NCBI RefSeq assembly: GCF_012972705.2 | Contig: NZ_JABCSC020000003.1 | Span: 434,001-498,000 of the forward strand | Source of the DNA: Uliginosibacterium aquaticum | GTDB taxonomy: Bacteria > Pseudomonadota > Gammaproteobacteria > Burkholderiales > Rhodocyclaceae | DNA: 64,000 nt | Direction: 5' to 3' | Shown: positions 9,702 through 34,959 of the stretch, piece by piece | How positions within the stretch are numbered: position 1 is the first letter of the stretch | Layout of the letters: every line of letters begins with the position of its first letter | Notes under the pieces: model-generated | The model's input: only the letters and a program-made list of their open reading frames with translations | Told to the model about the DNA's origin: nothing | Database searches by the model: none | Position numbers and translations under genes: made by a program

Positions 9702-11924
9702 TTGAGCGTGCAGCCGGCACAGCGCATCCGGCTTGAATGGGCGCTGGTCAGCGGCGTGCTGGCGCTGCTGGCCCTGGCCTGCGCGCTGCAGGGCTGGTTG
9801 TGGCGCTTCGATCTGCAATTGCATGACATCGCCCTGAGCCGTGCTGAGCATCCGGCAGATCCGCAGATCGTGATCGTCGCCATCGATGACGCCAGCCTTG
9901 CCGAGCTTGGGCGCTGGCCTTGGCCGCGCAGCCTGCATGCGACGCTCGTCGACCGGCTGAGCGCGGCCGGTGCCGCGGCCGTGGCGCTGGACATCATCTT
10001 CAGCGAGGCCGCTGCCGAGGATGCGCAGCTTGCCGCAGCCTTGCGCCGCCATGCCCGGGTGGTGCTGCCGGTACTCCAGCTGGAGCATGACGAAATCATC
10101 GTCGGCGAAAACCTGCCGGCCCCGGCCTTGCGCGCGGCAGCAGCGGCCCTCGGCCATATCCAGATGGAATTCGATCCGGATGGCCTGGCGCGCAGCGTGT
10201 ATCTGCAGGAAGGCTGGCAGCGGGCCGCGCATCCCCAGCTGGCCTTGGCGCTTGATCATCTATCGCGTGGCGAGGCGCAACCGGCGCCGCTCAATCCGGG
10301 CCCGGGCTGGCGCCGCAGTGGCTGGTTGCGGATCCCCTTTGCCGGGCCACCCGGCAGCTTTGCGCGAGTTTCCTATGCCGATGTGATCGCCGGGCGGGTG
10401 CCGGCGGAGCGCCTGCGCGACAAGCTGGTGCTGGTTGGCGCCACTGCGCCGGGCCTTACCGATTCCGTGCCGGTGCCTGGCTCGGGCTTCAGCCGCCCGA
10501 TGCCCGGCGTGGAGGTGCATGCCAATGTGCTCGCTGCGCTGCGCGCGGGCAGTGGCATTGCGCTGCTGCCGCCCTGGCTCAACGCTGCTTTTGCTTTGTG
10601 CGTGAGCCTGGGCCTGATGCTGGGCCTGCGCCGCAGCAGCGCGCGCAGCGGTTTGTTATGGACACTGGCGATGCTGCTCGGCGTGCTGCTTGCGAGTTGG
10701 CTGGGTCTGCGCCATCTGGGCTTCTGGCTGGCACCGGGAGCGGCCCTGCTGGTCTGCCTGCTGGCCTACCCCCTGTGGAGCTGGCGGCGCCTCGAAGCCA
10801 CGCAGCGCTATATGGATGGCGAGCTGCAGGCCTTGCAGCGCGACAGCCTGCTGCCACCCGAAAGCGGGCCGGATCCCTTCCAGCAGCGCCTGACCCTGCT
10901 GCGCTCGGCGGCGGCGCTGGGGCGCGAGGCGCATGCCTTGGTCGAAGCTGTGATTGCCCATCTGCCGGTCGGCGTGATCGCCCTGCATGGCGATGGCAGC
11001 CTGCGGCTGGCCAATCCCGCCGCGTACAGCCTGCTCGACCTGCCCGCCGGGGCAGATCTGGCGGCGGCCCTGCGCCAGTTGCGCTGGCCCGCCAGCCTGC
11101 AGCCGCAGGCCGGCTTGCCAGCCCGTCCGGCCGAGCCGCTGGAAGCCGAACTGCAGAGTGGCGCTGGTCGCCCCTTGCTGCTGCGTCTGGCTGCCTTGGG
11201 AGAGGGCTGGGTGCTGGGCCTGGCCGATCTGAGTCATGTCGAAGAAGCCCGCCAGGCCCGCGAAGATACCCTGCGTTTCGTGACCCACGATCTGCGCGCG
11301 CCGCTGGCCTCGATCATCAGCCTGATCGACACGCCGCCGGACAACTTCGAGCCGCTGCCTGCGATCCGCGGTATTTCCGAACGCGCGCTGGATCTCATTG
11401 ACGAGCTCTTCCGCCTGAGCCGGGCTGAAGCCGTGAGCGAGGAGAGCTTCGAGCTGACTGACCTGCAGGCTGTGATCGTGGATGCCTGCGAGCTGTGCTG
11501 GAGCCAGGCGCGCGCGGCGCGGGTGGCGTTCCAGGTGGATGCCGGTGGCGATGCCGAAGCCCTGGTCCGCGGCCATCATGAGCTGCTCTATCGGGCAGTC
11601 GCCAACCTGCTCTCGAATGCCATCAAGTACGGCGGCCCCGAGCGCACGGTGGAGATCAGTCTGCGGGCAGAGGGCGCCCACTGGCAGCTGGCCGTGCGCG
11701 ACCATGGCCCGGGCATCCCCGAGGCGCAGCGTGGCCGCCTCTTCGAGCGTTTCGCCCGCCTGCCGGATGCAGTGCGGCGCGGCCTGCCCGGCTCTGGCCT
11801 CGGCCTGCTGATGGTGCGTACCGTGGCCACCCGCCATGGTGGCCGGGTGAGCGCCGAGTTCCCGGCCGACGGCGGCTGCCGCTTCATCCTCGAATTGCCG
11901 CAGACCCATCAGGATCTGCCCTGA
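9702..11924 (+). CDS. CHASE2-domain sensor histidine kinase
   Basis: 740 residues. TM1 (about 14-30), a large extracytoplasmic CHASE2 domain (about 35-285), three more TM helices (about 290-360), a PAS-like region (about 415-510), a HisKA segment with phospho-acceptor His529 in FVTHDLRAPLAS, and an HATPase domain (N box around Asn635-Asn639, DHGPGIP at 667, GSGLGL at 697). Start codon uncertain: TTG at 9702 or GTG at 9708. It lies between the FecR protein and a response-regulator gene, a classical arrangement for a cell-envelope sensor. The CHASE2 ligand is unknown. Confidence 0.9.
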   Translation: MSVQPAQRIRLEWALVSGVLALLALACALQGWLWRFDLQLHDIALSRAEHPADPQIVIVAIDDASLAELGRWPWPRSLHATLVDRLSAAGAAAVALDIIFSEAAAEDAQLAAALRRHARVVLPVLQLEHDEIIVGENLPAPALRAAAAALGHIQMEFDPDGLARSVYLQEGWQRAAHPQLALALDHLSRGEAQPAPLNPGPGWRRSGWLRIPFAGPPGSFARVSYADVIAGRVPAERLRDKLVLVGATAPGLTDSVPVPGSGFSRPMPGVEVHANVLAALRAGSGIALLPPWLNAAFALCVSLGLMLGLRRSSARSGLLWTLAMLLGVLLASWLGLRHLGFWLAPGAALLVCLLAYPLWSWRRLEATQRYMDGELQALQRDSLLPPESGPDPFQQRLTLLRSAAALGREAHALVEAVIAHLPVGVIALHGDGSLRLANPAAYSLLDLPAGADLAAALRQLRWPASLQPQAGLPARPAEPLEAELQSGAGRPLLLRLAALGEGWVLGLADLSHVEEARQAREDTLRFVTHDLRAPLASIISLIDTPPDNFEPLPAIRGISERALDLIDELFRLSRAEAVSEESFELTDLQAVIVDACELCWSQARAARVAFQVDAGGDAEALVRGHHELLYRAVANLLSNAIKYGGPERTVEISLRAEGAHWQLAVRDHGPGIPEAQRGRLFERFARLPDAVRRGLPGSGLGLLMVRTVATRHGGRVSAEFPADGGCRFILELPQTHQDLP

Positions 11925-11999
11925 GGGCACTCAAGTTCGGTGAGCTTCATGCCGTGAAAGCACAGACGAAGAAACAAAATTTCACGTCTGGAGCACGCC

Positions 12000-12719
12000 A
12001 TGCGCATCGTCGTATTGGAAGACAACCTTACCCAATCCACCCTGGTTTCCTCGCTGTTGCGCGGTGCCGGCCATGACGTGCATGAATTTGCGCTGACCCG
12101 CGAACTGCAGCGCTTCTGTAGTCGCGAAAGCGTGGATCTCTACCTGCTGGACTGGATGATGCCGGACATCTCCGGTGAGGAATTCCTGCGTTGGCTGCGC
12201 GAAGAGCGCCATGACAACACCCCGGCGATCTTCATCACCGCCCGTGACACCGAGGACGACATCGTGACCGGCCTGTCTGCCGGGGCGGATGATTTCATGG
12301 TCAAGCCGATCAGCCAGCGCGTGCTGATGTCGCGCATCGAAGCTGTGCTGCGGCGGAGCAAACCGCGGGTGGCCGGCGAAGTGCTGGAGCTCTCGCCCTA
12401 CACCATCGATACCGCCCAGAAACGGATCCGCCTGCAGGGCGCGGAAGTCGAGCTCACCGAAAAGGAGTTTGATCTGGCTCTGTTCCTGTTCCGCAACCTC
12501 GGCCGCCTGCTCTCGCGCGGCCATCTGCTTGAAGCCGTGTGGGGGCGCAATCCGGATCTGGCGACCCGCACGGTGGATACCCATGTCTCACGCGTGCGCG
12601 GCAAGCTGCAACTGCGCCCCGAGAATGGCTACCGCCTGGTGCCGACCTACAACTTCGGCTATCGCCTTGAGCGCGTTGAAGCCGGCGAGATCGAGGCAAC
12701 ACCGCAGGTCGCTGCCTGA
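12000..12719 (+). CDS. OmpR-family response regulator
   Basis: 239 residues. Receiver domain (1-118) with acidic pocket Glu7/Asp8, phospho-acceptor Asp51 in LLDWMMPD, Thr80 and Lys102 in VKP; winged-helix output domain (about 127-225) with the usual EKEFDLALFLFRNLGRLLSRGHLLEAVWG and TVDTHVSRVRGKL segments. Partner of the CHASE2 kinase 75 bases upstream. Ribosome site TGGAG 7 bases before ATG. The spacer carries a small inverted repeat (AGACG / CGTCT, about 11963-11994) that may be an operator or a processing signal. Target genes unknown. Confidence 0.93.
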   Translation: MRIVVLEDNLTQSTLVSSLLRGAGHDVHEFALTRELQRFCSRESVDLYLLDWMMPDISGEEFLRWLREERHDNTPAIFITARDTEDDIVTGLSAGADDFMVKPISQRVLMSRIEAVLRRSKPRVAGEVLELSPYTIDTAQKRIRLQGAEVELTEKEFDLALFLFRNLGRLLSRGHLLEAVWGRNPDLATRTVDTHVSRVRGKLQLRPENGYRLVPTYNFGYRLERVEAGEIEATPQVAA

Positions 12720-12763
12720 ATACCCGTCGCAGCGGTTGCAGCCGTACGCCGTACCTCATGCCG

Positions 12764-12793
12764 GGCCCTGGCGGCTGAAGCCGAGCCAGGGCC
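12764..12793. terminator. hairpin between converging response regulator and nnrS
   Basis: Stem GGCCCTGGC / GCCAGGGCC extended inside by GGC-TGAA-GCC. No T-run on either strand, so it may act as a bidirectional or rho-assisted stop or simply protect the mRNA ends. Confidence 0.4.
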
Positions 12794-12801
12794 TGATGAC
12801 T

Positions 12802-13983
12802 TCAGCCCTCCTGCCCGTCCACCCGCGGATGCCACAGCATCGGCGCGTACTTCCACAGATACAGTGCGAAACATGCCGCCCACAGGGTGGCCGACAGGTG
12901 CAGGCCCGGCAGGTAGGCCGCCGGCCACAGCAGGGCCGGCAACACCCGCGCCAGCAGGGCCAGCTGAAGCAGCACATAGCAGGCGGTTTCAAGGCGGCCG
13001 GCCTTGAGCAGGCGGCCGGTATGGCCCAGTGCGGTGCGCGTGATCATGCCCAGGATCAGGCCGGCGATCAGGCCCACGGTCAGCACGTGCACTGCGGCCG
13101 TAAGCTGGCCGGCGGCCAGTAGCAGCAAGGCCACGATCAGCCAGCCATGGGCCAGATGCAGACTCCACAGCAGCGGCACGCGCAAGGTCGGGCCCGGGCG
13201 CCAGCCCCAGCAACGCACCGCCTGGGCCATGGCGGCGACGAGCGCCAGCGGCGTCAGCACCTCAGCCGGGGCGGATACGGCCCAGGCCAGCAGGCTGGCG
13301 ACGCTGGCGGTAATCGCGATGCGGTCCACCCAGGCGTTCTTCCAGGGCACAGTCTTGAGCGCATTGGCAGTGAAGCTCGGCACGATGCGCCCGGCGATCA
13401 CGGTGCATAGCGTGGCGATCAGGGCGATGGCCAGATGTAGGCCGAGCAGGGGCGAAACCGCCAGCCAGCCGTGTGCACCGGCGTGACTGAGGGCATTGGC
13501 GAGGGTCAGCGCGGCGAGGATCAGCAAGGCAAAGTAATTGCGCCGGCTGCCGGCGCGGATCAGTACGCGCGCCAGGGCGATGCCCGCCAGCGGCAGGAAG
13601 GTCAGATCGATCACGGCGGCGGCCATCGGGGGCGCCAGCAGCAGGGCGACGCGCCCGGCCAGCCACAAGCCGGCCAGGGCAGCCAGCGGCCAGCCGGTGG
13701 GCGTGGCCAGACCGGTCCAGTTCTTGCCGGCGGTGAACAGGAAGCCCACGATCACCGCGCAGGCGAAGCCGAACACCATCTCGTGGCCGTGCCACAGCAG
13801 CACCGGCAGGGCCGGATTGAGGCCACCCACGCCGGCCAACTGCAGCACCCACAGTGGTACGAAGAGCACGGCGAGAATCGCCGCAAGCAGGTAGAAGGGG
13901 CGAAAGCCCAGCGCAAAAACGGCACAGCCGCGCGGCGGGGCGGCGGGCTTGCGGCGGGGTTCGGTGAGGGGGATGACGGCCAT
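12802..13983 (-). CDS. nnrS: NnrS family multi-spanning membrane protein
   Basis: 393 residues from the ATG giving MAVIPLTEPRRK. About twelve hydrophobic helices. Family motifs: ALGFRPFYLLA near the N-terminus, LLWHGHEMVFGF, GFLFTAGKNWTGL, GRIVPSFTANAL and ILGMITRTALGHTGR near the C-terminus. NnrS proteins contain heme and copper and relieve nitric-oxide stress in denitrifiers and pathogens. Alternative starts at 14016 (ATG) or 14025 (TTG) exist. It lies downstream of the HiPIP gene on the same strand, although a hairpin separates them. Suggests that the organism meets NO, for instance during denitrification. Confidence 0.9.
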   Translation of the reverse strand: MAVIPLTEPRRKPAAPPRGCAVFALGFRPFYLLAAILAVLFVPLWVLQLAGVGGLNPALPVLLWHGHEMVFGFACAVIVGFLFTAGKNWTGLATPTGWPLAALAGLWLAGRVALLLAPPMAAAVIDLTFLPLAGIALARVLIRAGSRRNYFALLILAALTLANALSHAGAHGWLAVSPLLGLHLAIALIATLCTVIAGRIVPSFTANALKTVPWKNAWVDRIAITASVASLLAWAVSAPAEVLTPLALVAAMAQAVRCWGWRPGPTLRVPLLWSLHLAHGWLIVALLLLAAGQLTAAVHVLTVGLIAGLILGMITRTALGHTGRLLKAGRLETACYVLLQLALLARVLPALLWPAAYLPGLHLSATLWAACFALYLWKYAPMLWHPRVDGQEG

Positions 13984-14098
13984 GGCGGTTCCGGTTTCTT
14001 CTGGGGATGCTGGCATTGTCGGCAAGCGTGCCGCCAGTCTGCCTTATCGCGCGTCAAGTAGCCGGAATGAGGGCCGGACTGGAGGGGCGGAAATGCAA

Positions 14099-14121
14099 AC
14101 GGCCCGCGCGCGGCGGGCCGT
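14099..14121 (-). terminator. hairpin terminator after HiPIP gene
   Basis: Nine-base perfect stem ACGGCCCGC / GCGGGCCGT with a 5-base loop. Minus-strand T's following are few (TTTGCATTT), so termination may be partial and allow read-through into nnrS. Confidence 0.55.
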
Positions 14122-14142
14122 TCAGTCCGGAGCAGAAGAGGA

Positions 14143-14448
14143 TCAGGCCTTCTTGATCCAGGCCGAGCACCAGCCCTTGGCAGCGACCAGCTTGTTGCCC
14201 AGCGCGACACAGGAGCCTTCATTGGCATTGGCAGACTTGTAGAAATTGCAGTTGGCACAGGTGTTGGTCTTGGCCCAGGTCTTGAACTTGGCGGCATCGA
14301 CCTTGCTGCCATCAGCCTTGTAGCCCAGCGCCTTGGCGGTGGGATCGTCTTCGGTGACCTTGGCCTGAGCGGCAGCTTCACGCGAGGCCAAGAGGCCCAG
14401 GGCAACAGCGGGGGCGGCGAACAGGATGGAACGGCGGCGGCTATCCAT
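14143..14448 (-). CDS. high-potential iron-sulfur protein (HiPIP)
   Basis: 101 residues. Twin-arginine signal (SRRRSILF, then a hydrophobic stretch, cleavage near AQA at 29). The mature part has the HiPIP cysteine pattern Cys64-x2-Cys67-x12-Cys80-x13-Cys94 that holds one cubane [4Fe-4S] cluster at high potential, with Tyr70 nearby. HiPIPs are periplasmic electron carriers between the bc1 complex and terminal oxidases, reductases or photosynthetic centres. Export by Tat fits a cofactor-loaded protein. It is upstream of nnrS on the same strand, so a respiratory or NO-related link is plausible. Confidence 0.93.
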   Translation of the reverse strand: MDSRRRSILFAAPAVALGLLASREAAAQAKVTEDDPTAKALGYKADGSKVDAAKFKTWAKTNTCANCNFYKSANANEGSCVALGNKLVAAKGWCSAWIKKA

Positions 14449-14511
14449 GTAGAACTCTCCTAGGGGAAAAAGAAAACAGCCCTCAAAGCATCGTGGCTAC
14501 TCTTTGCTGCG

Positions 14512-16095
14512 TCAAGTCAGAATTTTGTGCGCGGCCTGCTCGCCCCACCAGGCCGCCTCCTCGAACACCGACAGGCCTGAGAGATCGGCATGCGCAAAGA
14601 GGATGTGCTGGTCCGCCGCACGCAGGGCCGCGATGCCGGGGCGCTGCAGGAAGCCCGGCGCCGGGATGGCCATGGCATGGCCGCGCAGGGTCAGCTCCAC
14701 CTGCTGGATCCGCCGCTCGAAGTCGCGCCCGTAAGTGGCGCGCAAGTCCCGCCCGGCAAGCTCCAGCAATTCGTCCTGCGCTGCGTTCTGCAGCCACAGC
14801 CGGCCGGTGCTTGGTGGCAGGGCGTGGTAGGCGCTGAACACGGTCTGTGCCGGGCGGGCGGCGCGAATCCACTGGTGGGTCGCCACCACCCAGCCCAGGG
14901 TGTCGCCGCCGTAGCGCAGGTTGTCCCAGGCCAGTGGGTGTTCTTCACTGGCCTCGCGCGGAAAGCCGTCGAGCAGAAAATTACTCACCAGCCAGGACGC
15001 GCTCTGCGGCAGATCGCGTGCCTTGTCGAAGCCGAACTCACCGAGATCCAGTACATGCGCCGCCACATGCAGCGGCATCGCCAGCACTACGCGTTTGGCA
15101 CGCAGGCGAAAGGCTTCCGCCCCGTTCAGGCACAGCACCTCGACGCCCGCCCCACGCGGCGTTACGCGCAGGGCCATGCCCGGCAGCAGGCGCTCAGCGC
15201 CGATGGTGGCGCTCATCTGGCGGGTCAGGGGGGCGAGGCCGTCCGGCCAGGTCAGCACCGCGCCATCCTCGCCATTCGCGGCATGGCCGCCCCGGCTGGC
15301 GAAGTAGTGGATGCCGGCCCAGGCCGACACCTGCTCGATGCCGGCGCCATAGTCGTCGCGGCAGCAGTAGTCCGCATACCAGCGCAGTGCCTCGGCGGTG
15401 AAACCTTCACGCGTCAGCCAGTTGGCGAAACTCTCATTAGCCAGCGCGCGCCAGGCGGGGGCCTGTGAAGACAGGGCCAGCGGCATCACGAAGGCGCGCC
15501 GCCCATCCGCACCGCGCGCCTCGCGCAGGGCCTGCATGCGTGCCGTGAAGCGCTCGATCTGGGCCAGCGCTTCGGCCTCCAGCCCGTGCTGCGGCAGTAG
15601 CCCCTCCTGCCACGCTCCATTGATGAACAGGCGCTCCTCCGGCGCATGCACCAGCACGTTTTCATCGAACTCCGGGCGCGCGGAAGACGGATTGCCGCGC
15701 AGGATGCCGAAGGCCGCCAGCAGCTCGCGCACATGCGCGGATTCGAGCGAGGGCAGCGGCAAGTAGTGCGCGCCACGCGGGCAGGGGATGCCACCGAGCG
15801 CGCTGCCGGCGGCGTTGCCCTGCGGCTCGGGGCCGGCCAGCACACAGAAATTGCGATAACCCTGCTGTGCCAGGCGCCAGCCCGCGAACAGGCCGGCCAC
15901 GCCGCTGCCAAGAATCGCCACCTCCACCTCGCGCTCGCGCGCCGGATCGGGCGCTGGCAGGCCGTCGCGCAAGGCGTGACCGGCGGCCATGCCGGGGCGC
16001 AGCACCGTCAGCGGCGGAGCCTGCCAGGGCAGACGCATTTCGCAGCCGCTGAGGCTGGCGGCTGCGGCAAGTTTCAAGAAGTGGCGACGCTGCAT
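14512..16095 (-). CDS. Tat-exported FAD-dependent amine-oxidase-like protein
   Basis: 527 residues. The N-terminus combines a Tat motif (QRRHFLKL) with a lipobox-like LSGC, then a Rossmann dinucleotide motif ILGSGVAGLFAGWRLA near residues 61-76 and a C-terminal FAD-contact region ILFAHADLSGLSVFEEAAWWGEQAAHKIL (split across the last 30 residues). Overall resembles flavin-containing monoamine/polyamine oxidases. It follows the membrane-anchored spermidine-synthase-like gene after 18 bases, so the two are probably one operon and may act on the same amine compound at the membrane. The substrate is not known. Confidence 0.82.
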   Translation of the reverse strand: MQRRHFLKLAAAASLSGCEMRLPWQAPPLTVLRPGMAAGHALRDGLPAPDPAREREVEVAILGSGVAGLFAGWRLAQQGYRNFCVLAGPEPQGNAAGSALGGIPCPRGAHYLPLPSLESAHVRELLAAFGILRGNPSSARPEFDENVLVHAPEERLFINGAWQEGLLPQHGLEAEALAQIERFTARMQALREARGADGRRAFVMPLALSSQAPAWRALANESFANWLTREGFTAEALRWYADYCCRDDYGAGIEQVSAWAGIHYFASRGGHAANGEDGAVLTWPDGLAPLTRQMSATIGAERLLPGMALRVTPRGAGVEVLCLNGAEAFRLRAKRVVLAMPLHVAAHVLDLGEFGFDKARDLPQSASWLVSNFLLDGFPREASEEHPLAWDNLRYGGDTLGWVVATHQWIRAARPAQTVFSAYHALPPSTGRLWLQNAAQDELLELAGRDLRATYGRDFERRIQQVELTLRGHAMAIPAPGFLQRPGIAALRAADQHILFAHADLSGLSVFEEAAWWGEQAAHKILT

Positions 16096-16113
16096 GGCTC
16101 GGGGCGGGAACGG

Positions 16114-17625
16114 TCAGCGGATCACCCGCCGCCAGTCTTCCTCGAAGTAACGCACGAGTGCCTGGTTGTTGAGGCGGTTGGGCTCGACTTCCGGGCGCGG
16201 CATGTCGGCCGGGAAGCGGAACATGCTCGCCGTCTGCTCCGCGTCCAGCCAGCGCAAGGGCACGCTGTAGGCCTTGGGCGGCTGGTAGCGGCCGTGGCGG
16301 TCGGCCAGCACGAAGCCCCACACGCCGAAGGACGGCACATGTGCCTGATACGGGAAGGTGTGGAAGCCGGCCTCGTCCAGCGTGGTCACCACGCACCAGA
16401 ACGCGTGCGGGGCGAAATAGGGCGAGGTGGATTGCACCACCAGCAGGCCGGTGTCGCTCAGATGGCGGCTGACGAGCCGGTAGAAGGGCTCCGAGTAGAG
16501 CTTGCCGAGGCCGTAGCTGGAGGGGTCCGGCAGATCGATGATGATGGCATCGTAGCTGCCGGGCGCGGTTTCCAGCCACTGGCCGGCATCGGCATTGATC
16601 ACCTGCACGCGCGGATTGGTCAGCGAATGCTGATTCAGCGCGGTGAGGGTGGCCGAGGTGGAGAAAAGCTGGGTCATGGCCGGATCGAGGTCGACCAGGG
16701 TGATGGCTTCCAGGCCCGGATACTTCAGCAGCTCGCGCACCGCTAGGCCATCGCCGCCGCCCAGTACCAGCACGCGCCGGGCGCCGGCCAGGGCGCTCAG
16801 CGCCGGATGCACCAGCGCTTCGTGATAGCGGTGCTCGTCGCGGCTGGAGAACTGCAGGTTGCCGTTGATGTAGAGGCGCAGGTCATCTTTCCACTGGGTC
16901 ACGATCAGGCGCTGGTAGGGCGTGGTCTGGGCATGCACGATCTGGTCGCCGTAGATGCCGCGCTCGCTCCAGCGCGTCACGGCCTCGGCCCCCACGAAGC
17001 CGGCGATCAGGGCCAGCAGCACGATGCTCGCACGCAGGCGCAGCGCGGTGGCCTGGCGCAGCTCGGCGCGGAAGGCCTGCGCCGCCACCAGCGCTACGCC
17101 GGCATTGGCGATACCGAAGAGAAAAGCGGTGCGCGCCAGCCCCAGCTGCGGTGCCAGCACGATCGGGAAGAGCAGGGAGACGACCAGCGCGCCGAGGTAG
17201 TCGAAGGTCAGCACCCGGCTCACGATCTCGGCGAACTCCGCCTTGCGTGCATTCAGCACCCGCATCACCAGCGGGATCTCCATGCCCACCAGCACGCCCA
17301 GCGCGAAGACCAGCGCGTAGAGCACCACCCGGAAAGGCGCGGCGACCCAGGCGAAGATCACGAACAGCAGGGTGGCCGACACGCCGCCGATCAGGCCCAC
17401 CAGCAGCTCGATATCGATGAAGCGCGCGAGCAGGTCTTCATCCTTGATGTATTTCGACAGATGCGAGCCCACGCCCATCGCAAACAGATAGGTGCCGATG
17501 ATCGACGAGAACTGCAGCACCGAATCGCCCAGCAGATAGCTCGCCAGCGCGGCGGCCACCAGTTCGTAGGCGAGGCCGCAGGAGGCAACGATGAAGACCG
17601 ACAGGATCAGCAGGCGATGGGGCAT
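16114..17625 (-). CDS. membrane-anchored spermidine-synthase-like aminopropyltransferase
   Basis: 503 residues. The N-terminal 215 residues contain about seven transmembrane helices; the rest is a spermidine synthase fold with the AdoMet-type motif VLVLGGGDGLAVRELLKYP near 280-300 and the catalytic-type IIDLPDPSSYGLGKLYS. Such fused proteins are often annotated polyamine aminopropyltransferase; whether they transfer aminopropyl groups to polyamines or to another amine is not settled. The gene is divergent from the DUF350 gene and upstream of the FAD oxidase, a neighbourhood that recurs in bacteria with SPFH, DUF4178 and DUF350 proteins. Confidence 0.85.
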   Translation of the reverse strand: MPHRLLILSVFIVASCGLAYELVAAALASYLLGDSVLQFSSIIGTYLFAMGVGSHLSKYIKDEDLLARFIDIELLVGLIGGVSATLLFVIFAWVAAPFRVVLYALVFALGVLVGMEIPLVMRVLNARKAEFAEIVSRVLTFDYLGALVVSLLFPIVLAPQLGLARTAFLFGIANAGVALVAAQAFRAELRQATALRLRASIVLLALIAGFVGAEAVTRWSERGIYGDQIVHAQTTPYQRLIVTQWKDDLRLYINGNLQFSSRDEHRYHEALVHPALSALAGARRVLVLGGGDGLAVRELLKYPGLEAITLVDLDPAMTQLFSTSATLTALNQHSLTNPRVQVINADAGQWLETAPGSYDAIIIDLPDPSSYGLGKLYSEPFYRLVSRHLSDTGLLVVQSTSPYFAPHAFWCVVTTLDEAGFHTFPYQAHVPSFGVWGFVLADRHGRYQPPKAYSVPLRWLDAEQTASMFRFPADMPRPEVEPNRLNNQALVRYFEEDWRRVIR

Positions 17626-17707
17626 CGGGATGGCGGGGAACGCAGTTTTGGTGGCACTATCCGACTGGAATTATGCGGGAAACCAGACTCCCGCCGGAGA
17701 AATGCAC

Positions 17708-18100
17708 ATGCTCATTCAGGCCCTCGGCAACTATGTGTTGCATCTCTTCACTGGCTTCGCGCTGGTGGGCGTCTTCGTGTGGATCTACCTGCGTCTCACG
17801 CCCTACTGCGAGATCAGCCTGATCCGCAAAGGCTGTGTGGCCCCGGCGCTGTCCTTCGGCGGCACCCTGATCGGCTTTTCGCTCACCGTGGCCTCCGGCC
17901 TGCTGCACTTGCCGGATTACCTGCACTTCCTGGCCTGGTCTGCCGCTGCCATGCTGATCCAGCTCGTCGCTTTCCTGCTGTTGCAGCGCGCCCTGCCCGA
18001 GATGAAACGCGCGCTCGAAGACAACAACGTCGCGATGGGTGCCCTGATCGGCGCGGTGGCGCTGTCCATTGGCCTCATCAGCGGCGCCTGCTTGTCCTAG
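17708..18100 (+). CDS. DUF350 family membrane protein
   Basis: 130 residues, four transmembrane helices. DUF350 signatures: YLRLTPYCEISLIRKG (about 27-42) and SFGGTLIGFSLTVASG (about 50-65), with a second half related to the first (NNVAMGALIGAVALSIGLISGACLS). E. coli YjfL belongs to this family. Start chosen at the second ATG (17708), 8 bases after GGAG; the first ATG at 17702 is too close to the ribosome site. The stop codon lies inside the left arm of an inverted repeat. Divergent from the spermidine-synthase-like gene and probably functionally linked to it. Confidence 0.85.
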   Translation: MLIQALGNYVLHLFTGFALVGVFVWIYLRLTPYCEISLIRKGCVAPALSFGGTLIGFSLTVASGLLHLPDYLHFLAWSAAAMLIQLVAFLLLQRALPEMKRALEDNNVAMGALIGAVALSIGLISGACLS

Positions 18101-18219
18101 CAGTCGAAAATAATGGTTCTGGCTGCGTTGCGCCTCCTTGCCGTACTGCTTGTACTGACAGCAAAGGCACGCCTTGCCAGAAGCACTCCGCTGCGCTGCG
18201 TTCCATTTTTGCGACTGCT
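18099..18219. repeat. MITE-like imperfect inverted repeat
   Basis: Outer arms AGCAGTCGAAAATAATGG (18099-18116) and CCATTTTTGCGACTGCT (18203-18219) are inverted copies with two differences. Inner arms TTCTGGC / GCCAGAA and a central GTAC-TGCTT-GTAC continue the symmetry, with an asymmetric insertion in the right arm. No open reading frame inside. It looks like a small non-autonomous element; its left end replaces the last base or two of the DUF350 stop region. Confidence 0.6.
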
Positions 18220-18233
18220 TGGCGTCCGTTGAA

Positions 18234-18728
18234 ATGAGCCCGCTGATCCTGCGCGAACTTGCCGACCACGATCTCGACGCCCTGCTGGGCCTTTACGCCG
18301 AGCTGCATCCGGCCGATGCGCCGCTGCCCGCGCGCAGCGAAGTCGAAGCCATCTGGCAGCAGATGCGGGCGACCTCCGGCCTGCAGCTGCTGGGCGGCTT
18401 TGTGGATGAGGCGCTGGTCGTGAGCTGCACGCTCGTCATCACGCCCAACCTCACGCGTGGCGGGCGGCCCTATGCGCTGATCGAAAACGTCGTTACCACC
18501 GCCAGTCAGCGCCGCAAGGGCTACGCCAAAGCCCTGCTTGAACACGCCAAGGCGTTGGCCTGGCAGGCGCGCTGCTACAAGGTGATGCTGATGACCAGCC
18601 GGCAGGATGTCGCCACCCGAGCCTTCTACGAATCCGCCGGTTTCGATGCGCACACCAAGCAGGCGTACTACGCTGCGGCACCCACGCAGCACGACTTGAA
18701 TCCGTCATTCCCGCCCGCGCGGAAATGA
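18234..18728 (+). CDS. GNAT family N-acetyltransferase
   Basis: 164 residues. GNAT fold with acetyl-CoA binding motif A, NVVTTASQRRKGYAKALLEHA (shortened: Q/R-x-x-G-x-A pattern in SQRRKGYAKALL) near residues 89-105, and a C-terminal ATRAFYESAGFD motif. Length is standard for a single-domain GNAT. The substrate cannot be read from sequence; the polyamine-type neighbours make an amine a reasonable guess only. Start chosen at the ATG giving MSPLILRELADHDLDALL; the frame upstream to 18174 runs into the inverted repeat. It lies 31 bases before the SPFH gene and probably shares its transcript. Confidence 0.87.
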   Translation: MSPLILRELADHDLDALLGLYAELHPADAPLPARSEVEAIWQQMRATSGLQLLGGFVDEALVVSCTLVITPNLTRGGRPYALIENVVTTASQRRKGYAKALLEHAKALAWQARCYKVMLMTSRQDVATRAFYESAGFDAHTKQAYYAAAPTQHDLNPSFPPARK

Positions 18729-18759
18729 CGACCCGAAACGCGACTGACAGGAGAACACC

Positions 18760-19773
18760 ATGGGCCTCACCGATTTCATCAAGAAGCAGTTCATCGACGT
18801 TCTGCAATGGAACGAAGACGGCGACGGCGTGCTCGCCTGGCGCTACCCGATGCAGGATTTCGAAATCCAGTACGGCGCCGCGCTCACCGTGCGCGAATCG
18901 CAGATGGCCGTGTTCGTGAATGAAGGCAAGGTGGCAGACGTGTTCGGCCCCGGCCTCTACAAGCTCACCACCCAGACCTTGCCGGTGCTCACCTACCTGC
19001 AGAACTGGGACAAGCTCTTCGAATCCCCCTTCAAGAGCGACGTCTACTTCTTCTCCACGCGCCTGCAGATCGGCCGCAAGTGGGGCACCCAGCAGCCGGT
19101 CACGATCCGCGACAAGGATTTCGGCATGGTGCGCCTGCGTGCCTTCGGCATCTATTCCTACAAGCTCGCCGACCCGAAGAAGTTCTTCACCGAACTCTCC
19201 GGCACGCGAGACACCTACACGGTTGAAGACATCGAGCAGCAATTGCGCAACCTCGTCGTCGCCAACATGACCGGCCTGTTCGGTTCGAGTGAATTGCCCT
19301 TCCTCGACATGGCCGCCAACCAGATGTTGCTCTCCGAAAAACTGAAAGAGAGCATGACGCCGGTGTTCGAGCAATACGGCCTGGCGCTGGACAACTTCGC
19401 CGTCGAAAACGTCTCCCTGCCTGAAGAGCTCCAGAAGGCCATCGACACCCGCATCTCGATGGGCATGATGGGCGACATGAGCAAGTTCACCCAGTACCAG
19501 ATGGCCAGCGCCATCCCGCTCGCCGCACAGAACGAAGGCGGCCTTGCCGGCATGGGCGCCGGCGTCGGCGTAGGTCTCGGCATGGGCCAGATGATGGCGG
19601 GCACCATGGCCCAGACCATGGCCGGCGTCGCTCAGCCTGCTGCTGCCGCGCCTGCTGCTGAAGACCCGACCGCCAAGCTCGCCAAGCTGAAGGCCCTGCT
19701 CGATCAGAACCTGATCACGCAGGCGGATTACGACACGGCGAAGGCGGAAGTGCTGAAGAAGATGCTGGGGTGA
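18760..19773 (+). CDS. SPFH-domain (YdjI-type) protein with C-terminal SHOCT module
   Basis: 337 residues. The N-terminal 220 residues are an SPFH/virion-core-like domain (QWNEDGDGVLAWRYPM, AVFVNEGKVADVFGPGLYKL, and the LPEELQKAIDTRISMGMMGD helix). A Gly/Met/Ala-rich linker (about 250-295) leads to a SHOCT motif (LAKLKALLDQNLITQADYDTAKAEVLKKML, split over the last 30 residues). No signal peptide or TM helix. B. subtilis YdjI is of this type and is linked to PspA-type membrane-stress proteins and zinc-ribbon partners. Ribosome site CAGGAGAAC before the ATG. Probably cytoplasmic, membrane-associated. Confidence 0.9.
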   Translation: MGLTDFIKKQFIDVLQWNEDGDGVLAWRYPMQDFEIQYGAALTVRESQMAVFVNEGKVADVFGPGLYKLTTQTLPVLTYLQNWDKLFESPFKSDVYFFSTRLQIGRKWGTQQPVTIRDKDFGMVRLRAFGIYSYKLADPKKFFTELSGTRDTYTVEDIEQQLRNLVVANMTGLFGSSELPFLDMAANQMLLSEKLKESMTPVFEQYGLALDNFAVENVSLPEELQKAIDTRISMGMMGDMSKFTQYQMASAIPLAAQNEGGLAGMGAGVGVGLGMGQMMAGTMAQTMAGVAQPAAAAPAAEDPTAKLAKLKALLDQNLITQADYDTAKAEVLKKMLG

Positions 19774-19873
19774 GTTTATGGGTTAGCTGCGCTTAGCTCG
19801 CAAGCGAGCAGGGTTCAAAGCACGTGCTGGTTAATAATTGTGCCGAAGCGATCACTAGGCTTGGAATTAATTG

Positions 19874-20515
19874 ATGAAAAAGCATAGGCGGGATATTTTA
19901 AAGGCAGGCGTGAGTGCAATGGTTATGTCGTCAATTTCTGGGTGTGTGACGTATGCACTTTGGGATGATGACAAATATAACTTCTTGGAGAACGAAAATT
20001 TTTCAAGTATCCATGCAACGGAAGACTGGTCGAAAATAATCGTTCTTGGGGAAAGTCGTCACTATATTTTCGACGTTCCGGCGGAGCTTGCCCGTACGTT
20101 GAATTCCACTTATTACCCCTATGTTTTTGCGGAGTTTGGGGTGTTTAATATCCAGGAAGGCGGAGTTCTGAATGGTTCATTGACAATTCAACTTGTTGGG
20201 AATGCACCGGAAAAAGAGCGGGTTAAGGCTCAAGAGGATGGATTCATAAATTTCCGTCAGTATTTTGATCTTAAGGGTCTGGCCTATGATTCGGGACCAA
20301 GTTCAAAAGCGATGCGCTCTTTTCAACGCACTCAGGGTTTAAATAGGACGTACTCAGTTGGTGTGTATGCAGAACCATCGAAAACAGCTAAAACTCTAGG
20401 TGTAATTGGAAAGCTGGCTCTGACACCAATTACAGTAGCTGTCGATGGTTCCTTGATTCTTGTGACAGCGCCTGTAAGCATTCCTGTTTTGATCATACTG
20501 TCTAAAGTTATTTAA
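19874..20515 (+). CDS. AT-rich lipoprotein of unknown function
   Basis: 213 residues from the ATG (a TTG lies just before it). Basic N-terminus with a Tat-like HRRDILKAG, hydrophobic stretch and lipobox SISG-Cys24, then a soluble domain with IIVLGESRHYIFDVP near 53-67 and a C-terminal hydrophobic region (about 175-210) that may be membrane-embedded. No known family was recognised with confidence. Base composition is strikingly AT-rich against its GC-rich neighbours and codon choice is different, so it was probably acquired recently. It is flanked downstream by a poly-G tract and palindromic repeats. Confidence 0.75.
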   Translation: MKKHRRDILKAGVSAMVMSSISGCVTYALWDDDKYNFLENENFSSIHATEDWSKIIVLGESRHYIFDVPAELARTLNSTYYPYVFAEFGVFNIQEGGVLNGSLTIQLVGNAPEKERVKAQEDGFINFRQYFDLKGLAYDSGPSSKAMRSFQRTQGLNRTYSVGVYAEPSKTAKTLGVIGKLALTPITVAVDGSLILVTAPVSIPVLIILSKVI

Positions 20516-20569
20516 TCGTGTGAATGAAGCGCTGCGTATTGCACACTCTGCCACTGCATGCCCCGATCC

Positions 20570-20582
20570 GGGGGGGGGGGGG
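20570..20582 (+). repeat. 13-base poly-G tract
   Basis: An uninterrupted run of 13 G's, 55 bases after the lipoprotein stop. Such tracts slip during replication and may also be a sequencing trouble spot. It is not inside a recognised gene. Confidence 0.9.
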
Positions 20583-20771
20583 TCTCTGCCCCACGCCAAG
20601 GCCGTAACCGGAGTGAGGGTCGGATAAGCTGAGGGCGACATCCGACGATTGCGTTGGGCAACAAATGTGTCGGAAGGCGCTTCGTTTTTCCGACCTGCCA
20701 ATCTGAAAGATGTACAAAACCGCTGACCTCGCCTGCGGGGCTGAAGTCCGCCGCGCATGGCGCACCCGTAG

Positions 20772-20829
20772 GGTGCGGTGAACACCGCACCGCATGCGTT
20801 GATCGGAGTGGCGGAGTTGGCACTCCGCC
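20772..20829. repeat. pair of palindromic repeat units
   Basis: First unit: GGTGCGGTG-AA-CACCGCACC (20772-20791), preceded by CGTAG. Second unit: GGCGGAGT-TGGC-ACTCCGCC (20810-20829), followed by CTACG. The second recurs with a different loop at 36012-36031. They resemble dispersed REP-like units. The gene-free stretch 20516-20911 contains these, the poly-G tract and nothing else that I can recognise. Confidence 0.7.
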
Positions 20830-20911
20830 CTACGCCAGCTACGCCAGCGAGTAGCCCGGATTCCGCGCCGCGCAGGATTTGCCCTGCAAGCTGACCCGCT
20901 CTGTTTCCGCC

Positions 20912-21238
20912 TCAGCAGCATTCCTGTTCGATGCGGTCGAGCAGGGCGAGGGCTTCGGGGTCGGCCTTGTCTTCGAAGAGTTCGCGGATCTGGTTCAGAT
21001 TGCTGTGGACCAGGAACAGGTCGTCCGGGCGCGGGCCGCTGCCGCCTTCGGCTTTCTTCTTGAAATACTCCCAGAAGGCGTTGCTGTGCGCGGGGTCGTC
21101 GATGTAGCGGCGGATATGGCGCATCAGTTCGGCGGCTTTGGCGTCGCAATCGAGGCCGACAAAGCTGACATAGCGTTCGGGCTTGGTTTCCTTTTTGCCG
21201 GCTTCGGCAGCGGGCGGGTTCTGGCAGGGGCAGCTCAT
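20912..21238 (-). CDS. cowN: CowN, CO-tolerance protein for nitrogen fixation
   Basis: 108 residues. After a Cys/Lys-containing N-terminus unlike other CowN proteins (MSCPCQNPP...), the CowN pattern is clear: ERYVSFVGLDCDAKA (22-36), IDDPAHSNAFWEYF, PRPDDLFLVHSNLNQIRELFED and the ending ALALLDRIEQECC. CowN lets Rhodospirillum rubrum and other diazotrophs fix nitrogen in the presence of carbon monoxide by protecting nitrogenase. It lies downstream of a CooA-like CO sensor gene, with a perfect CooA-type operator 60 bases upstream of the ATG. A GTG three codons upstream is an alternative start. Confidence 0.9.
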   Translation of the reverse strand: MSCPCQNPPAAEAGKKETKPERYVSFVGLDCDAKAAELMRHIRRYIDDPAHSNAFWEYFKKKAEGGSGPRPDDLFLVHSNLNQIRELFEDKADPEALALLDRIEQECC

Positions 21239-21270
21239 GGTGATCACAGGCAGGAGATGAGGAAGGCCTC

Positions 21271-21276
21271 ATCCTA
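21271..21276 (-). promoter_or_regulatory. -10 element of predicted cowN promoter
   Basis: TAGGAT on the minus strand, 4 of 6 matches to TATAAT. With the start predicted at 21264, the CooA-type palindrome is centred at -41.5, exactly where class II CRP-family activators bind. No -35 is expected at such promoters. Confidence 0.5.
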
Positions 21277-21297
21277 GCCAGCCGTGCGGCGCGGCAT

Positions 21298-21313
21298 TGT
21301 CGGCTAGCCGACA
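21298..21313. promoter_or_regulatory. CooA-type operator (perfect 16-bp palindrome)
   Basis: TGTCG-GCTAGC-CGACA, a perfect inverted repeat with the half-site spacing of CooA sites described in Rhodospirillum rubrum (TGTCA/G-N6-CGACA). It overlaps the last codons and TAG stop of cooA and lies upstream of cowN. Confidence 0.8.
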
Positions 21314-21984
21314 GTTCCGCTGGTGCGCCCTTCTTCCCCTTCCTGCCAGCGCAGCAGGGCGTCGGGCTGGAGCACGACGAACTGGCGGCGGGCCGGCCGA
21401 GTGAGGATGGCTTCGCGTTCGAGACGTTTGAACAGGCTGGACACGGTCTGGCGCGTACAACCCAGCAGCAGGGCGATCTCACCGGCCGAGAGATCCAGCC
21501 CGAAGCGCATCCCTGGGGCGGTTGCGACGCCTTGCTGGCGGGCCGAGACGAGCAGGAAGCGGGCGAGGCGGCCGGCCACATCGCGGAAGGCGAGGTCTTC
21601 GATGAGGGCGATGCTGTTGTCGAGGATGCGCCCCAGCACCGGCATCACCAGGGCCAGCATGCCCGGCTGATGGGCCATGCTGCGGGCAAAGTCGGCGGTG
21701 GGCATGGAGAGTACGCAGCAGGCGCTGTCGCAGCGCAGATAGGCGCGGGTGTGGGTGCTGAAGAGCTCACCGGCGCTAAGGTAGGCGAGGGTCAGCTCCT
21801 TGTCTTCGCTGGCCACGAATACGCGGATGCGGCCTTCGCGCAGCAGCAGGATGCGGTCCTTGGGCGATCCAGGCGTGCTGAGCAGGTAGCCTGGCGGCAA
21901 CTGCTGGCTGCTGAAGCGTGCCAGCAGTTCCGGGGGCAGGCCGGGGCGGGCAGGGGCAGCTGACCTGGTTGGAGGCGCGGACAT
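21304..21984 (-). CDS. cooA: CooA-like CO-sensing transcription activator (CRP/FNR family)
   Basis: 226 residues. N-terminal effector domain (about 20-125), long dimerisation helix, and C-terminal helix-turn-helix with GCTRQTVSSLFKRLERE (about 180-197). It aligns by eye along its length with R. rubrum CooA: GRIRVF, YLSAGELFSTH (CooA: YLTSGDMFCMH) and IEDLAFRDVAGRLARF (CooA: IEDLMFHDIKQRIAGF). His78 matches the heme ligand His77; the redox-switch Cys75 is replaced by Ser76, as is known for some CooA homologues. Its stop codon lies within a perfect CooA-type operator and cowN follows, which supports a CO-sensing role over a generic CRP/FNR call. Confidence 0.8.
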   Translation of the reverse strand: MSAPPTRSAAPARPGLPPELLARFSSQQLPPGYLLSTPGSPKDRILLLREGRIRVFVASEDKELTLAYLSAGELFSTHTRAYLRCDSACCVLSMPTADFARSMAHQPGMLALVMPVLGRILDNSIALIEDLAFRDVAGRLARFLLVSARQQGVATAPGMRFGLDLSAGEIALLLGCTRQTVSSLFKRLEREAILTRPARRQFVVLQPDALLRWQEGEEGRTSGTVG

Positions 21985-22197
21985 GGGGGCGAGAAGCAGG
22001 CTGGAACAAGGCTTTCAGCCTCGCAAGGAACATGCCTTGCGGCCGCCGCCATCCGCACAAACCCCTGTTGTGCCCGCACCACGCCGCCGGCAGGGCGCAG
22101 ATTGACGGCGAAAAACAAGCGGGACTTTGCTGCAGCGGGCGTGTAGGGTGTCGCGAAGCGTGGGGCATCCGTTCCGCGCTGCAACCCGGAAACCTCC

Positions 22198-22620
22198 ATG
22201 AATCCTGCCAGCCCCCAGATGACCGAAGCGCAATTGCTTGCCGCACCGGCGGATGAATACATGTCGCCGGCCCAGCTGGCCTTTTTTCGCGCCCGCCTGG
22301 TGGCTGAACGTGATCTGTTGTTGAGCTCGGCGCATGAAACCACCGAGCACCTGCAGGATTTCGTGGCGACGCCGGACCCGGCTGACCGCGCTTCGCAGGA
22401 AGAGGATCACACCCTGGAGCTGCGCGTGCGCGATCGCGAACGCAAGATGCTGCACAAAATCGATCAGGCTATCGAGCGCATCGACCAGGGTGAATACGGC
22501 TGGTGCGAGGAGAGTGGCGAGCCGATCGGCATCGCCCGCCTGCTGGCCCGCCCGACCGCGAGCTACAGTGTGGAAGCGCAGGAGCGCCACGAAATCCGCC
22601 GCAAGATGAAGGGCGGCTGA
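22198..22620 (+). CDS. dksA: DksA-type RNA polymerase-binding factor, single-cysteine form
   Basis: 140 residues. Coiled-coil arms around the conserved DPADRASQEEDHTLELRVRDRERK tip (Asp-Pro-Ala-Asp-Arg-Ala near 60), then IDQAIERIDQGEYGWCEESGEPIGIARLLARPTA and a C-terminal helix. DksA binds the secondary channel of RNA polymerase and works with ppGpp on rRNA and amino-acid promoters. The zinc finger is degenerate: one Cys remains (GWCEESGE) where E. coli DksA has four, so zinc binding is probably lost, as in other cysteine-poor DksA proteins. Monocistronic, followed by a palindrome. Confidence 0.92.
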   Translation: MNPASPQMTEAQLLAAPADEYMSPAQLAFFRARLVAERDLLLSSAHETTEHLQDFVATPDPADRASQEEDHTLELRVRDRERKMLHKIDQAIERIDQGEYGWCEESGEPIGIARLLARPTASYSVEAQERHEIRRKMKGG

Positions 22621-22645
22621 GCTTCAGCTCACTGCCTCTGAGGAA

Positions 22646-33259: not shown

Positions 33260-33430
33260 CTATTTGTGGCTGCTGCCACCGCTCCAGCCACTGCCGCCGC
33301 CGGAGCTGTAGCCCGAAGAGTTGCCCCAGGAGCGATAGCTGCCACTGGAGATGTTGTCGACGTGTGAATTGATGCCGGTGGTGGCGAGCACCACGATGGT
33401 GGCATACAGGAAATAGACGATGCGGTGCAT
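33260..33430 (-). CDS. tiny Ser/Gly-rich single-span membrane protein, coupled to DUF4178 gene
   Basis: 56 residues, easily missed because of its length. MHRIVYFLYATIVVLATTGI forms one hydrophobic helix (residues 4-19), followed by a tail made mostly of Ser and Gly (SGSYRSWGNSSGYSSGGGS, then GWSGGSSHK). The ATG overlaps the TGA of the upstream DUF4178 gene (ATGA), which implies translational coupling and a shared role. The tail could be an exposed flexible or interaction segment. No function known. Confidence 0.75.
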   Translation of the reverse strand: MHRIVYFLYATIVVLATTGINSHVDNISSGSYRSWGNSSGYSSGGGSGWSGGSSHK

Positions 33431-34959
33431 CAGTCGTCGCCTCCGCCAGAGTCGCTGTCTGAAGTATCCGTATCCCAGTCACCACCGCCGGCATCGCTGC
33501 TGCCCGCCGTACCGCTGGTGACCCAGGTCGGCAGCCACAGCAGCATCAGTGCGAGTGCACTGACGATCCAGACCATCGGGCTGAAGCTTACGATCTGGTC
33601 GAAGTTCAGGCTCAGCAGGATCAGGCTGGCCCCCAGCGCGTAACTCTTCAGTTCCGACGGAGGCTCTTCCACCCTCGGCGTCGGCAGGCTGTCCGCCGGT
33701 TTGCCGAACCAGCGCGCGACCTGCGCGGCATCCACCTCGCGGCTGCGCGACCAGGTGACCTCCTGTGCCGTCACTTCCTCGCAGAGGATGCCATCCGGGC
33801 CGTAGTAGTCGGTCACACGGCTCTGATCGCCGATCTTTACGCGCCAATTGAAGGCGCCGGCGGCATAGATCACCTCGGCACCGTAAGTCCATTTCTTGGT
33901 GTAGCCCTTGCCGCCAAAGCGCAGGCCGGCGCCCCCGGTGATTTCCGGCAGGGCGTTGAGTACCTCGGTGCGGCTCCAGCCTTGATGACTTTCCACCAGC
34001 CACAGGAAACCCTTGCCGGCGTTGAAAAGCAGGTACTCGGTCCACGGCGGATCGGGCTCTTCGCCGGTTTCGCGCACCCGCATGAGGCCGATCAGCTGCC
34101 ATTTGGAGCGATCGATAGTGGCCTTGTCGCCGAGCTGCAGAGTGCTTTTGAACTGCGCCAGCTCCTTGTGCAGGGCCAGCACTTCAGCCTTCTCCGCCGA
34201 GAGTGCCACTTCCGCGTGGCAGGCCGGACACACCAGATGCTCGGCGCGGCCTGGCACCGTGTCGATGCCGCTGCCGCAGGCGGGGCATTCGAGCGTGCGG
34301 GCCTTGCCCTTGAGCTTGCCGGCGCTGCTTGCGACTTGCTCTTCTTCCCGCAGCAACTGGCACTTGAGGGCTTCGAGGCTGGTGGCTTCGCCGAGGAAAA
34401 CCTGCGGTGTGTCGCTCTCCGAGTAGTCGAGGGTCAGGAACTTGTCGCCGTTGCGGAAATCCGCCACCCGCGCCTGCCAGCCTGCACCCACCTGGAAAGG
34501 CAGTTCGCCCTCGCCGCCGGTGCATTGCGCCGTGCGTACATCGGTGGCGGTATAGCGTTCGTCCTTGAAGGGAATTGTGGCATTGGGGCGGATCGTCTCG
34601 AAGGCAGGCGCCTTGCCCGGTGTGCCGCCTGGTCGGGTGATCACATACTGGCCGGAGCCATCCGCCAGCCAGCCGGCCGAGCCATCATCGAACAGCAGGT
34701 ACCACTCGTTCCAGAAGCCATCGTCATAGCGCAGCTGGATGCGCCCGACCACGCTGAAGTTCGTTCCCTGATACTGGCCGCAGCTGGTGATCTGCAGGCG
34801 GGTGTGGTCCTCGACGATATCGGACATGCGGCCGATCGAGCGTACTGCGTCGGCCTCGCGCAGCAGGGTGCTGCGGCAATAGGCGCACACTGCCATCACC
34901 GAGGCGGCAGACCTGAATTCGACTTGGGCCCCGCAGGCGGGACAGGCGCACTGGTACAT
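33430..34959 (-). CDS. DUF4178 zinc-ribbon membrane protein
   Basis: 509 residues. N-terminal zinc ribbon CACPACGAQVEF...CAYC (residues 4-29), a first DUF4178 unit (about 45-200, with FSVVGRIQLRYDDGFWNEWYLLFDDGSAGWLADG split over 60-95), a second zinc ribbon ECPACG...CPAC (about 230-255), a second DUF4178 unit (about 280-410, QLIGLMRV...WTEYLLFN), two TM helices (about 435-475) and an acidic Gly/Ser/Asp tail. Start is the ATG giving MYQCACPACG; the frame upstream is shadow of ruvA. Proteins of this type occur with SPFH and DUF350 genes, which here lie 15 kb away. Probably an envelope or membrane-stress factor. Confidence 0.87.
   Translation of the reverse strand: MYQCACPACGAQVEFRSAASVMAVCAYCRSTLLREADAVRSIGRMSDIVEDHTRLQITSCGQYQGTNFSVVGRIQLRYDDGFWNEWYLLFDDGSAGWLADGSGQYVITRPGGTPGKAPAFETIRPNATIPFKDERYTATDVRTAQCTGGEGELPFQVGAGWQARVADFRNGDKFLTLDYSESDTPQVFLGEATSLEALKCQLLREEEQVASSAGKLKGKARTLECPACGSGIDTVPGRAEHLVCPACHAEVALSAEKAEVLALHKELAQFKSTLQLGDKATIDRSKWQLIGLMRVRETGEEPDPPWTEYLLFNAGKGFLWLVESHQGWSRTEVLNALPEITGGAGLRFGGKGYTKKWTYGAEVIYAAGAFNWRVKIGDQSRVTDYYGPDGILCEEVTAQEVTWSRSREVDAAQVARWFGKPADSLPTPRVEEPPSELKSYALGASLILLSLNFDQIVSFSPMVWIVSALALMLLWLPTWVTSGTAGSSDAGGGDWDTDTSDSDSGGGDD

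Follow-up and report, generated by a model that had tools for sequence, protein, structure and literature searches.

In a 64,000-nucleotide stretch of the Uliginosibacterium aquaticum genome (contig NZ_JABCSC020000003.1, positions 434,001 to 498,000; hereafter the window), we analysed a cluster at positions 14512-19773 that encodes a membrane-fused aminopropyltransferase (SpeE7), an exported flavin adenine dinucleotide (FAD) protein, a DUF350 membrane protein, a GNAT acetyltransferase and an SPFH/SHOCT protein. Comparison with other bacteria places SpeE7, the FAD protein, DUF350 and SPFH, together with a DUF4178 protein and the S-adenosylmethionine (AdoMet) decarboxylase SpeD, in a defined six-gene unit that is mostly inherited together. 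We propose that this unit may form a membrane-bound module for aminopropyl transfer and amine oxidation, a reading to which we attach about even confidence. The observations behind it are gene content, predicted folds, synthase motifs, recurrence across loci, co-inheritance across genomes and a twin-arginine (RR) motif in the FAD protein.

A scan of genome contigs with a SpeE7 alignment returned 580 relatives, of which the best-scoring 80 were kept as named loci, a sample therefore skewed to near relatives. Five partners (the FAD protein, DUF350, SPFH, DUF4178 and SpeD) were counted at an E-value of 1e-5 in flanks of up to 10 kb. All five lie near SpeE7 in 54 of the 80 named loci; among the 62 loci with enough flanking sequence, 49 have all five, 55 have at least four and four have none. 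The usual betaproteobacterial order is SpeE7 followed by the FAD gene, divergent from DUF350, SPFH, DUF4178 and SpeD, and other gene orders are found in loci of Acidobacteriota, Gemmatimonadota, Bacteroidota and Psychrobacter. A SpeE7 match at 1e-30 is present in 22 of the 274 genomes of a class sample, and PspA stands beside the synthase in 8 of the 17 loci followed further; no match to PspA or DUF2170 was found in the 64-kb window or the 80 named loci. A preliminary description of the cluster, made from the sequence, had noted that related sets recur with DUF4178 or PspA; DUF4178 belongs to the core set, and PspA adjoins those class-sample loci. The neighbourhood analysis that it proposed finds recurrent co-occurrence, with at least four of the five partners in 64 of the 80 loci and matching inheritance in 41 genomes. 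Four loci with long flanks in which SpeE7 has none of the partners (L101, L103, L111 and L121) share other neighbours (clusters c8, c34 and c39).

The 41 genomes comprise the window's own and 40 relatives, and each part was searched separately. SpeE7 occurs in 16 of them, and the DUF4178 and FAD proteins occur in the same 16. DUF350 exceeds its cut-off in these 16 and in G309, with a weak match in G304, while strong Band_7_1 (SPFH) matches are found in the 16 and in G285, G306 and G307, and SpeD in 15 of the 16 and in G289, G294 and G312. Fisher values for co-inheritance range from 9.7e-12 to 1.8e-7, with relatedness ignored. Within the window's genus, five genomes carry the set and three have no match to SpeE7, DUF4178, the FAD protein, DUF350 or SpeD. 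Furthermore, the parts are inherited together even where they are dispersed: G287, G288 and G291 carry the FAD gene on a separate contig, G283 has it 16 kb off, and in G297 the genes for DUF350, SPFH and DUF4178 lie about 0.7 Mb from SpeE7.

SpeE7 matches NCBIfam NF002956 (PRK03612) over its full length at 697.9 bits, against a curated cut-off of 472, and Pfam Spermine_synth at 1.2e-32. Its predicted model (mean predicted local distance difference test score, pLDDT, 88.8) has seven long helices in residues 2-224, followed by a complete aminopropyltransferase domain. The top structural match is the T. thermophilus triamine/agmatine aminopropyltransferase (Z 35.6, root-mean-square deviation (rmsd) 2.9, 277 residues aligned) and the second is thermospermine synthase (Z 34.0, rmsd 1.9, 259 aligned), with spermidine synthases following at a Z of 32.4 or below; the list is filled by hits to the synthase domain and says nothing on the fold of the seven-transmembrane (7TM) part. 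The sequence profile likewise ranks thermospermine synthase first. Across 18 diverse homologues, motifs including Y267-H268, GGGDG, D346 and D364-L-P-D367-P show little or no variation; they also align with the motifs of aminopropyltransferases of solved structure, D-L-P-D-P corresponding to DLADP and DLTDP in the triamine/agmatine and thermospermine enzymes and to DSTEP in B. subtilis spermidine synthase. The triamine/agmatine and thermospermine enzymes thus have the C-terminal fold and motifs in common with SpeE7, but they are soluble and lack the 7TM domain.

SpeD, the would-be supplier of the aminopropyl donor, belongs to the set, which strengthens the reading of amine synthesis. Searching the 41 genomes with Spermine_synth at 1e-10, and calling matches below 1e-25 strong, we find that SpeE7 is the sole strong match in 12 of the 16 SpeE7 genomes, 11 of which have SpeD; six of those 11 also carry weaker matches, between 1e-14 and 1e-10. 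A second strong match, of soluble synthase type, is present in the window's genome, at C8:73830 (L048:9687-10691), and in three other SpeE7 genomes of its genus. A strong Spermine_synth match, possibly to the same gene, is also seen in three genus mates that lack SpeD; by these matches the soluble protein does not track SpeD in the genus, and they raise the question of which donor is used there. In a tree of 34 SpeD sequences, the DUF4178-linked type separates from the others (11 rows, 100/100). Within the window's genus, G279 has this linked type, and the window's genome (G000), G275, G277 and G280 have another, so that a different SpeD is present in all four genus genomes that lack the cluster-linked one. 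From the tree, it looks as if another type has taken the place of the linked SpeD in this genus; this replacement is, we infer, the strongest argument for a dependence of SpeE7 on decarboxylated AdoMet.

The N-terminus of the FAD protein reads MQRRHFLK...LSGC, and its model (pLDDT 90.0) has the predicted fold of the flavin amine oxidase/protoporphyrinogen oxidase superfamily. By Z, the best match is putrescine oxidase (Z 28.1, rmsd 3.4, 418 residues aligned), ahead of a bacterial monoamine oxidase (MAO; 27.6), phytoene desaturase (27.4), protoporphyrinogen oxidase (26.5) and the periplasmic spermidine dehydrogenase SpdH (25.9, 455 aligned); with SpdH and putrescine oxidase the fold is common, at about 16% identity. 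A loose pattern detects an RR motif in 82 of 85 homologues; the count involves no selection on RR and includes a few duplicate contigs, and the pattern may extend past the true start on its upstream side. A lipobox pattern is found in 36 of the 85. Export therefore seems general for the family, and lipid anchoring does not. Amine oxidation by the FAD protein is suggested by a modelled fold at superfamily level and partly by its context. In the window and in L209, L210 and L211 the FAD gene adjoins a gene for a high-potential iron-sulfur protein (HiPIP), a possible electron acceptor for the FAD protein to judge from this position; the fifth locus of the genus, L213, has no such neighbour. HiPIP and GNAT are genus-level additions outside the core set.

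On these grounds we infer a transfer reaction with its acceptor, a topology, an order of steps, a coupling to HiPIP and a scaffold role, as follows. SpeD, encoded elsewhere in the genome, would make decarboxylated AdoMet. With it SpeE7 would aminopropylate, at the cytoplasmic face, an amine acceptor that either sits at the 7TM domain or arrives through it; the acceptor would probably be other than putrescine. Oxidation of the product, or of a related amine, by the exported flavoprotein would follow at the outer face of the inner membrane, in the window's genus perhaps with electron transfer to HiPIP. The complex could be built or positioned by DUF350, the SPFH/SHOCT protein and DUF4178.

Several findings weigh against this module. 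The likeness of SpeE7 to triamine and thermospermine enzymes leaves the acceptor unfixed, and in the window's genome SpeD could serve the second, soluble synthase-type protein. The fold of the FAD protein is common to protoporphyrinogen oxidase and phytoene desaturase at near-equal Z, Foldseek puts protoporphyrinogen oxidase first, and the protein has no match to Pfam Amino_oxidase at an E-value of 0.001. MAO and polyamine oxidase have a known active-site lysine; lysine is absent from the columns conserved in 95% of 69 FAD homologues, as judged from the sequence alignment (its rows were picked by the RR motif, so that conservation of those arginines there carries no meaning). Seven of the 80 loci have none of the partners, three of them on short contigs and four on longer ones, three with 10 kb on both sides. 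Finally, G295, a SpeE7 genome that is 79% complete, has no SpeD match, SpeD occurs in three genomes without SpeE7 (G289, G294 and G312), and DUF350 and Band_7_1 also occur without SpeE7.

SpeE7 might instead be an ordinary spermidine synthase tethered to the membrane, the exported protein being an oxidase of putrescine or spermidine that restricts or recycles polyamine, and the membrane parts serving only to localise synthesis. We regard this as unlikely, though deserving serious consideration, as SpeE7 keeps the synthase motifs, is the sole strong synthase in 12 of 16 relatives and is accompanied by a protein whose fold is closest by Z to putrescine oxidase. However, where SpeD occurs in the absence of SpeE7 (three genomes), speD has a soluble speE as its neighbour (a strong match within 250 bases) and the set is missing, and the top structural matches of SpeE7 are enzymes for larger acceptors. 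Membrane-fused synthases reportedly failed to complement a spermidine synthase mutant in work by Li et al. in 2019. A Massilia species does contain a little spermidine, 0.3 umol/g compared with 4.8 umol/g for putrescine (PMC9028926), which is weak evidence either way. A smaller share of our confidence, and a low one, goes to a sensor of membrane state or polyamines, in which SpeE7 would bind decarboxylated AdoMet or amines and mainly signal to an SPFH/DUF4178/DUF350 complex in an envelope response resembling the phage-shock-protein system. The SPFH and SHOCT neighbours and the PspA genes beside 8 of 17 class-sample loci with SpeE7 homologues fit such a sensor, and Ravi et al., in the part of their text available, propose that such systems monitor polyamines (PMC11237479). 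Nevertheless, the synthase motifs are invariant across phyla and SpeD is kept in 15 of 16 genomes, in the window's genus by way of a substitute type, a pattern more in keeping with a donor that is consumed.

The layout of a membrane domain with a cytoplasmic transferase recalls MprF, which carries out lipid aminoacylation. On this analogy the genes would serve to modify lipids or the envelope, decarboxylated AdoMet being the donor: SpeE7 would aminopropylate a membrane amine (such as an aminophospholipid or lipid-linked amine), the 7TM domain and DUF350 would pass it outward, and the flavoprotein would oxidise it, either undoing the modification or yielding a reactive aldehyde. We give this a low probability; the likeness to MprF-type systems is in layout alone, whereas the donor, the fold and any lipid product differ. 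That unrelated neighbours were assembled by chance is scarcely credible: GNAT, the HiPIP gene and the RR-type lipoprotein frame at 19871 are indeed lineage-specific, but the core set stands together in several phyla with changed gene order and is co-inherited where it is dispersed. We rejected chance proximity on the recurrence in 80 loci and the matching presence and absence in 41 genomes.

Closely related operons have already been described, and the set in the window combines features of two groups. In the available text of Ravi et al. (2024; PMC11237479), from which the name YjfL for DUF350 is taken, one group of operons has a 7TM-fused spermine/spermidine-synthase domain, DUF350, DUF4178 and a CesT/Tir-PspA dyad, and a variant within an ATP-grasp group, whose ATP-grasp enzyme is of the glutathionylspermidine synthetase type, has Band-7/SHOCT, DUF350, AdoMet decarboxylase and a polyamine oxidase. 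With the first group the window's set has in common the 7TM-fused synthase, DUF350 and DUF4178 (here 13.7 kb away); the CesT/Tir (DUF2170)-PspA dyad was not found in the window or the 80 loci, and Band_7_1/SHOCT, the FAD protein and SpeD are present instead. With the variant it has in common Band-7/SHOCT (SHOCT under cut-off), DUF350, AdoMet decarboxylase (SpeD being unlinked here) and an amine-oxidase-type protein (here by fold), the partners here being the 7TM-fused synthase and DUF4178, where the text ties the variant to the ATP-grasp group. Since that text places Band-7/SHOCT, AdoMet decarboxylase and oxidase outside the 7TM-synthase group, we regard the set as a variation on an operon type already known but uncharacterised, and the exact combination may already be in Fig. 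3 or the tables of PMC11237479. With reference to Li et al. 2019, the same text also considers that substrates of another kind may be aminopropylated, and the parts available of PMC10407285 and PMC11107197 have no bearing on the module. A literature search, mostly by titles, turned up no assay of it, and within the papers searched DUF4178 is mentioned in one. The 2019 study by Li et al. (Biochem J) is said to have linked AdoMet decarboxylase to the membrane-fused synthase and DUF350, the flavoprotein, SPFH and DUF4178 not being its focus.

Open reading frames (ORFs), Pfam and NCBIfam confirm all five genes named in the preliminary description, in two divergent transcripts (Table 1). On the minus strand, SpeE7 is followed after an 18-bp gap by the FAD gene and after a further 63 bp by the HiPIP gene; the plus strand has DUF350, GNAT and SPFH/SHOCT in that order. 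The SHOCT score (Pfam profile search) is marginally below the threshold of 27 bits. By eye, the likely start of DUF350 is 17708, with GGAG 8 bases upstream, and not the mechanical ORF start at 17591, and that of GNAT is 18234 instead of 18174. With DUF350 starting at 17708, the divergent starts of SpeE7 and DUF350 are 82 bp apart and do not overlap.

Table 1. Genes of the cluster and the DUF4178 gene, in window coordinates
Feature	Coordinates	Strand	Evidence
HiPIP (high-potential iron-sulfur protein), RR-type N-terminus	14143..14448	-	Pfam HIPIP 2.6e-19
FAD protein, predicted amine-oxidase fold, Tat-type RR motif, lipobox-like LSGC	14512..16095	-	NAD_binding_8 1e-07, over cut-off
SpeE7, seven predicted transmembrane helices fused to aminopropyltransferase domain	16114..17625	-	NF002956 697.9 bits
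DUF350 membrane protein, YjfL-type	17708..18100	+	Pfam DUF350 2.3e-30 (scored on longer ORF 17591-18100)
GNAT acetyltransferase	18234..18728	+	Acetyltransf_1 1.1e-10
SPFH (Band_7_1) protein, C-terminal SHOCT	18760..19773	+	Band_7_1 4.5e-80; SHOCT 26.8 bits
Double-DUF4178 protein	33430..34959	-	DUF4178 6.6e-30, two stretches; own-genome search; start by homology

The window's own genome (4.09 Mb, 13 contigs) has one DUF350, one SpeD and one double-DUF4178 protein. The last lies 13.7 kb from the SPFH gene, inverted relative to its relatives, beyond the range of the preliminary description and inside the window; by eye, it has zinc-ribbon-like cysteines and a hydrophobic C-terminal part. SpeD is on another contig (C7), unlinked to the cluster and directly downstream of an ORF that reads by eye, from its translation, as bioA (SAM-dependent aminotransferase; L002:129-1875). 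Loss of DUF4178 and SpeD from the genome was considered and rejected on finding the one in the window and the other on C7. In the genus, the gap between SPFH and DUF4178 has no insert in L211, a 331-codon gene in L209 and, in L210, about 3.3 kb with frames that by eye resemble a REP-associated transposase and a toxin-antitoxin pair, and the cluster seems, from these arrangements, to have been opened at this spot. About 1.1 kb beyond the DUF4178 start, at 36084-36983, lies a second, weak Spermine_synth-domain protein (299 aa, 8e-08).

Comparison of 41 divergent regions for a regulator motif gave none that is firm, a promoter and terminator scan gave signal no higher than in shuffles, and Rfam has no match within 11900-23700. 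By eye, a CATAAT element, possibly a -10 box to judge from its letters, lies upstream of SpeE7 (17600-17690) and also in L209, L210, L211, L214 and L051. The gap between DUF350 and GNAT (18101-18236) holds an imperfect inverted-repeat-like stretch that could be a REP- or MITE-like element (short mobile repeat), and L210 has two partial matches to it, of 31 and 47 bases, in the corresponding position. Downstream of the SPFH gene, an RR-type lipoprotein-like ORF of 214 aa (19871-20515) has no Pfam or NCBIfam match and no counterpart in the other loci that were profile-searched. The flanking genes for NnrS (12802-14025), CowN (20912-21247) and a hemerythrin-PAS-GGDEF protein (25583-27835) suggest nitric-oxide or low-oxygen physiology.

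Among the loci searched, GNAT is confined to the window and three genomes of the same genus (loci L209, L210 and L211); L213 lacks it. It has four PDB sequence matches at 0.001, none named as a polyamine acetyltransferase, and its NCBIfam matches are all far under cut-off. Acetylation as a core function was set aside on this genus-limited distribution and on the PDB matches. The preliminary description had offered synthesis, oxidation or acetylation of an amine. Acetylation does not find support as a step of the system; a recurrent membrane module that joins a membrane-fused aminopropyltransferase to an exported flavoprotein of predicted amine-oxidase fold does, and the presence of SpeD in the set favours synthesis. 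A hypothetical role in membrane stress, also offered there, draws on neighbouring genes (SPFH here, PspA at 8 of the 17 class-sample loci) and on published work.

AdoMet decarboxylase is usually taken to indicate spermidine synthesis. Among the 16 SpeE7 relatives, 11 have SpeE7 as the sole strong candidate to use the product of SpeD, so that decarboxylated AdoMet would feed an uncharacterised membrane reaction there. Furthermore, the matching inheritance of the exported flavoprotein names a second enzyme of interest, and the module could give DUF350 and DUF4178 a biochemical role.

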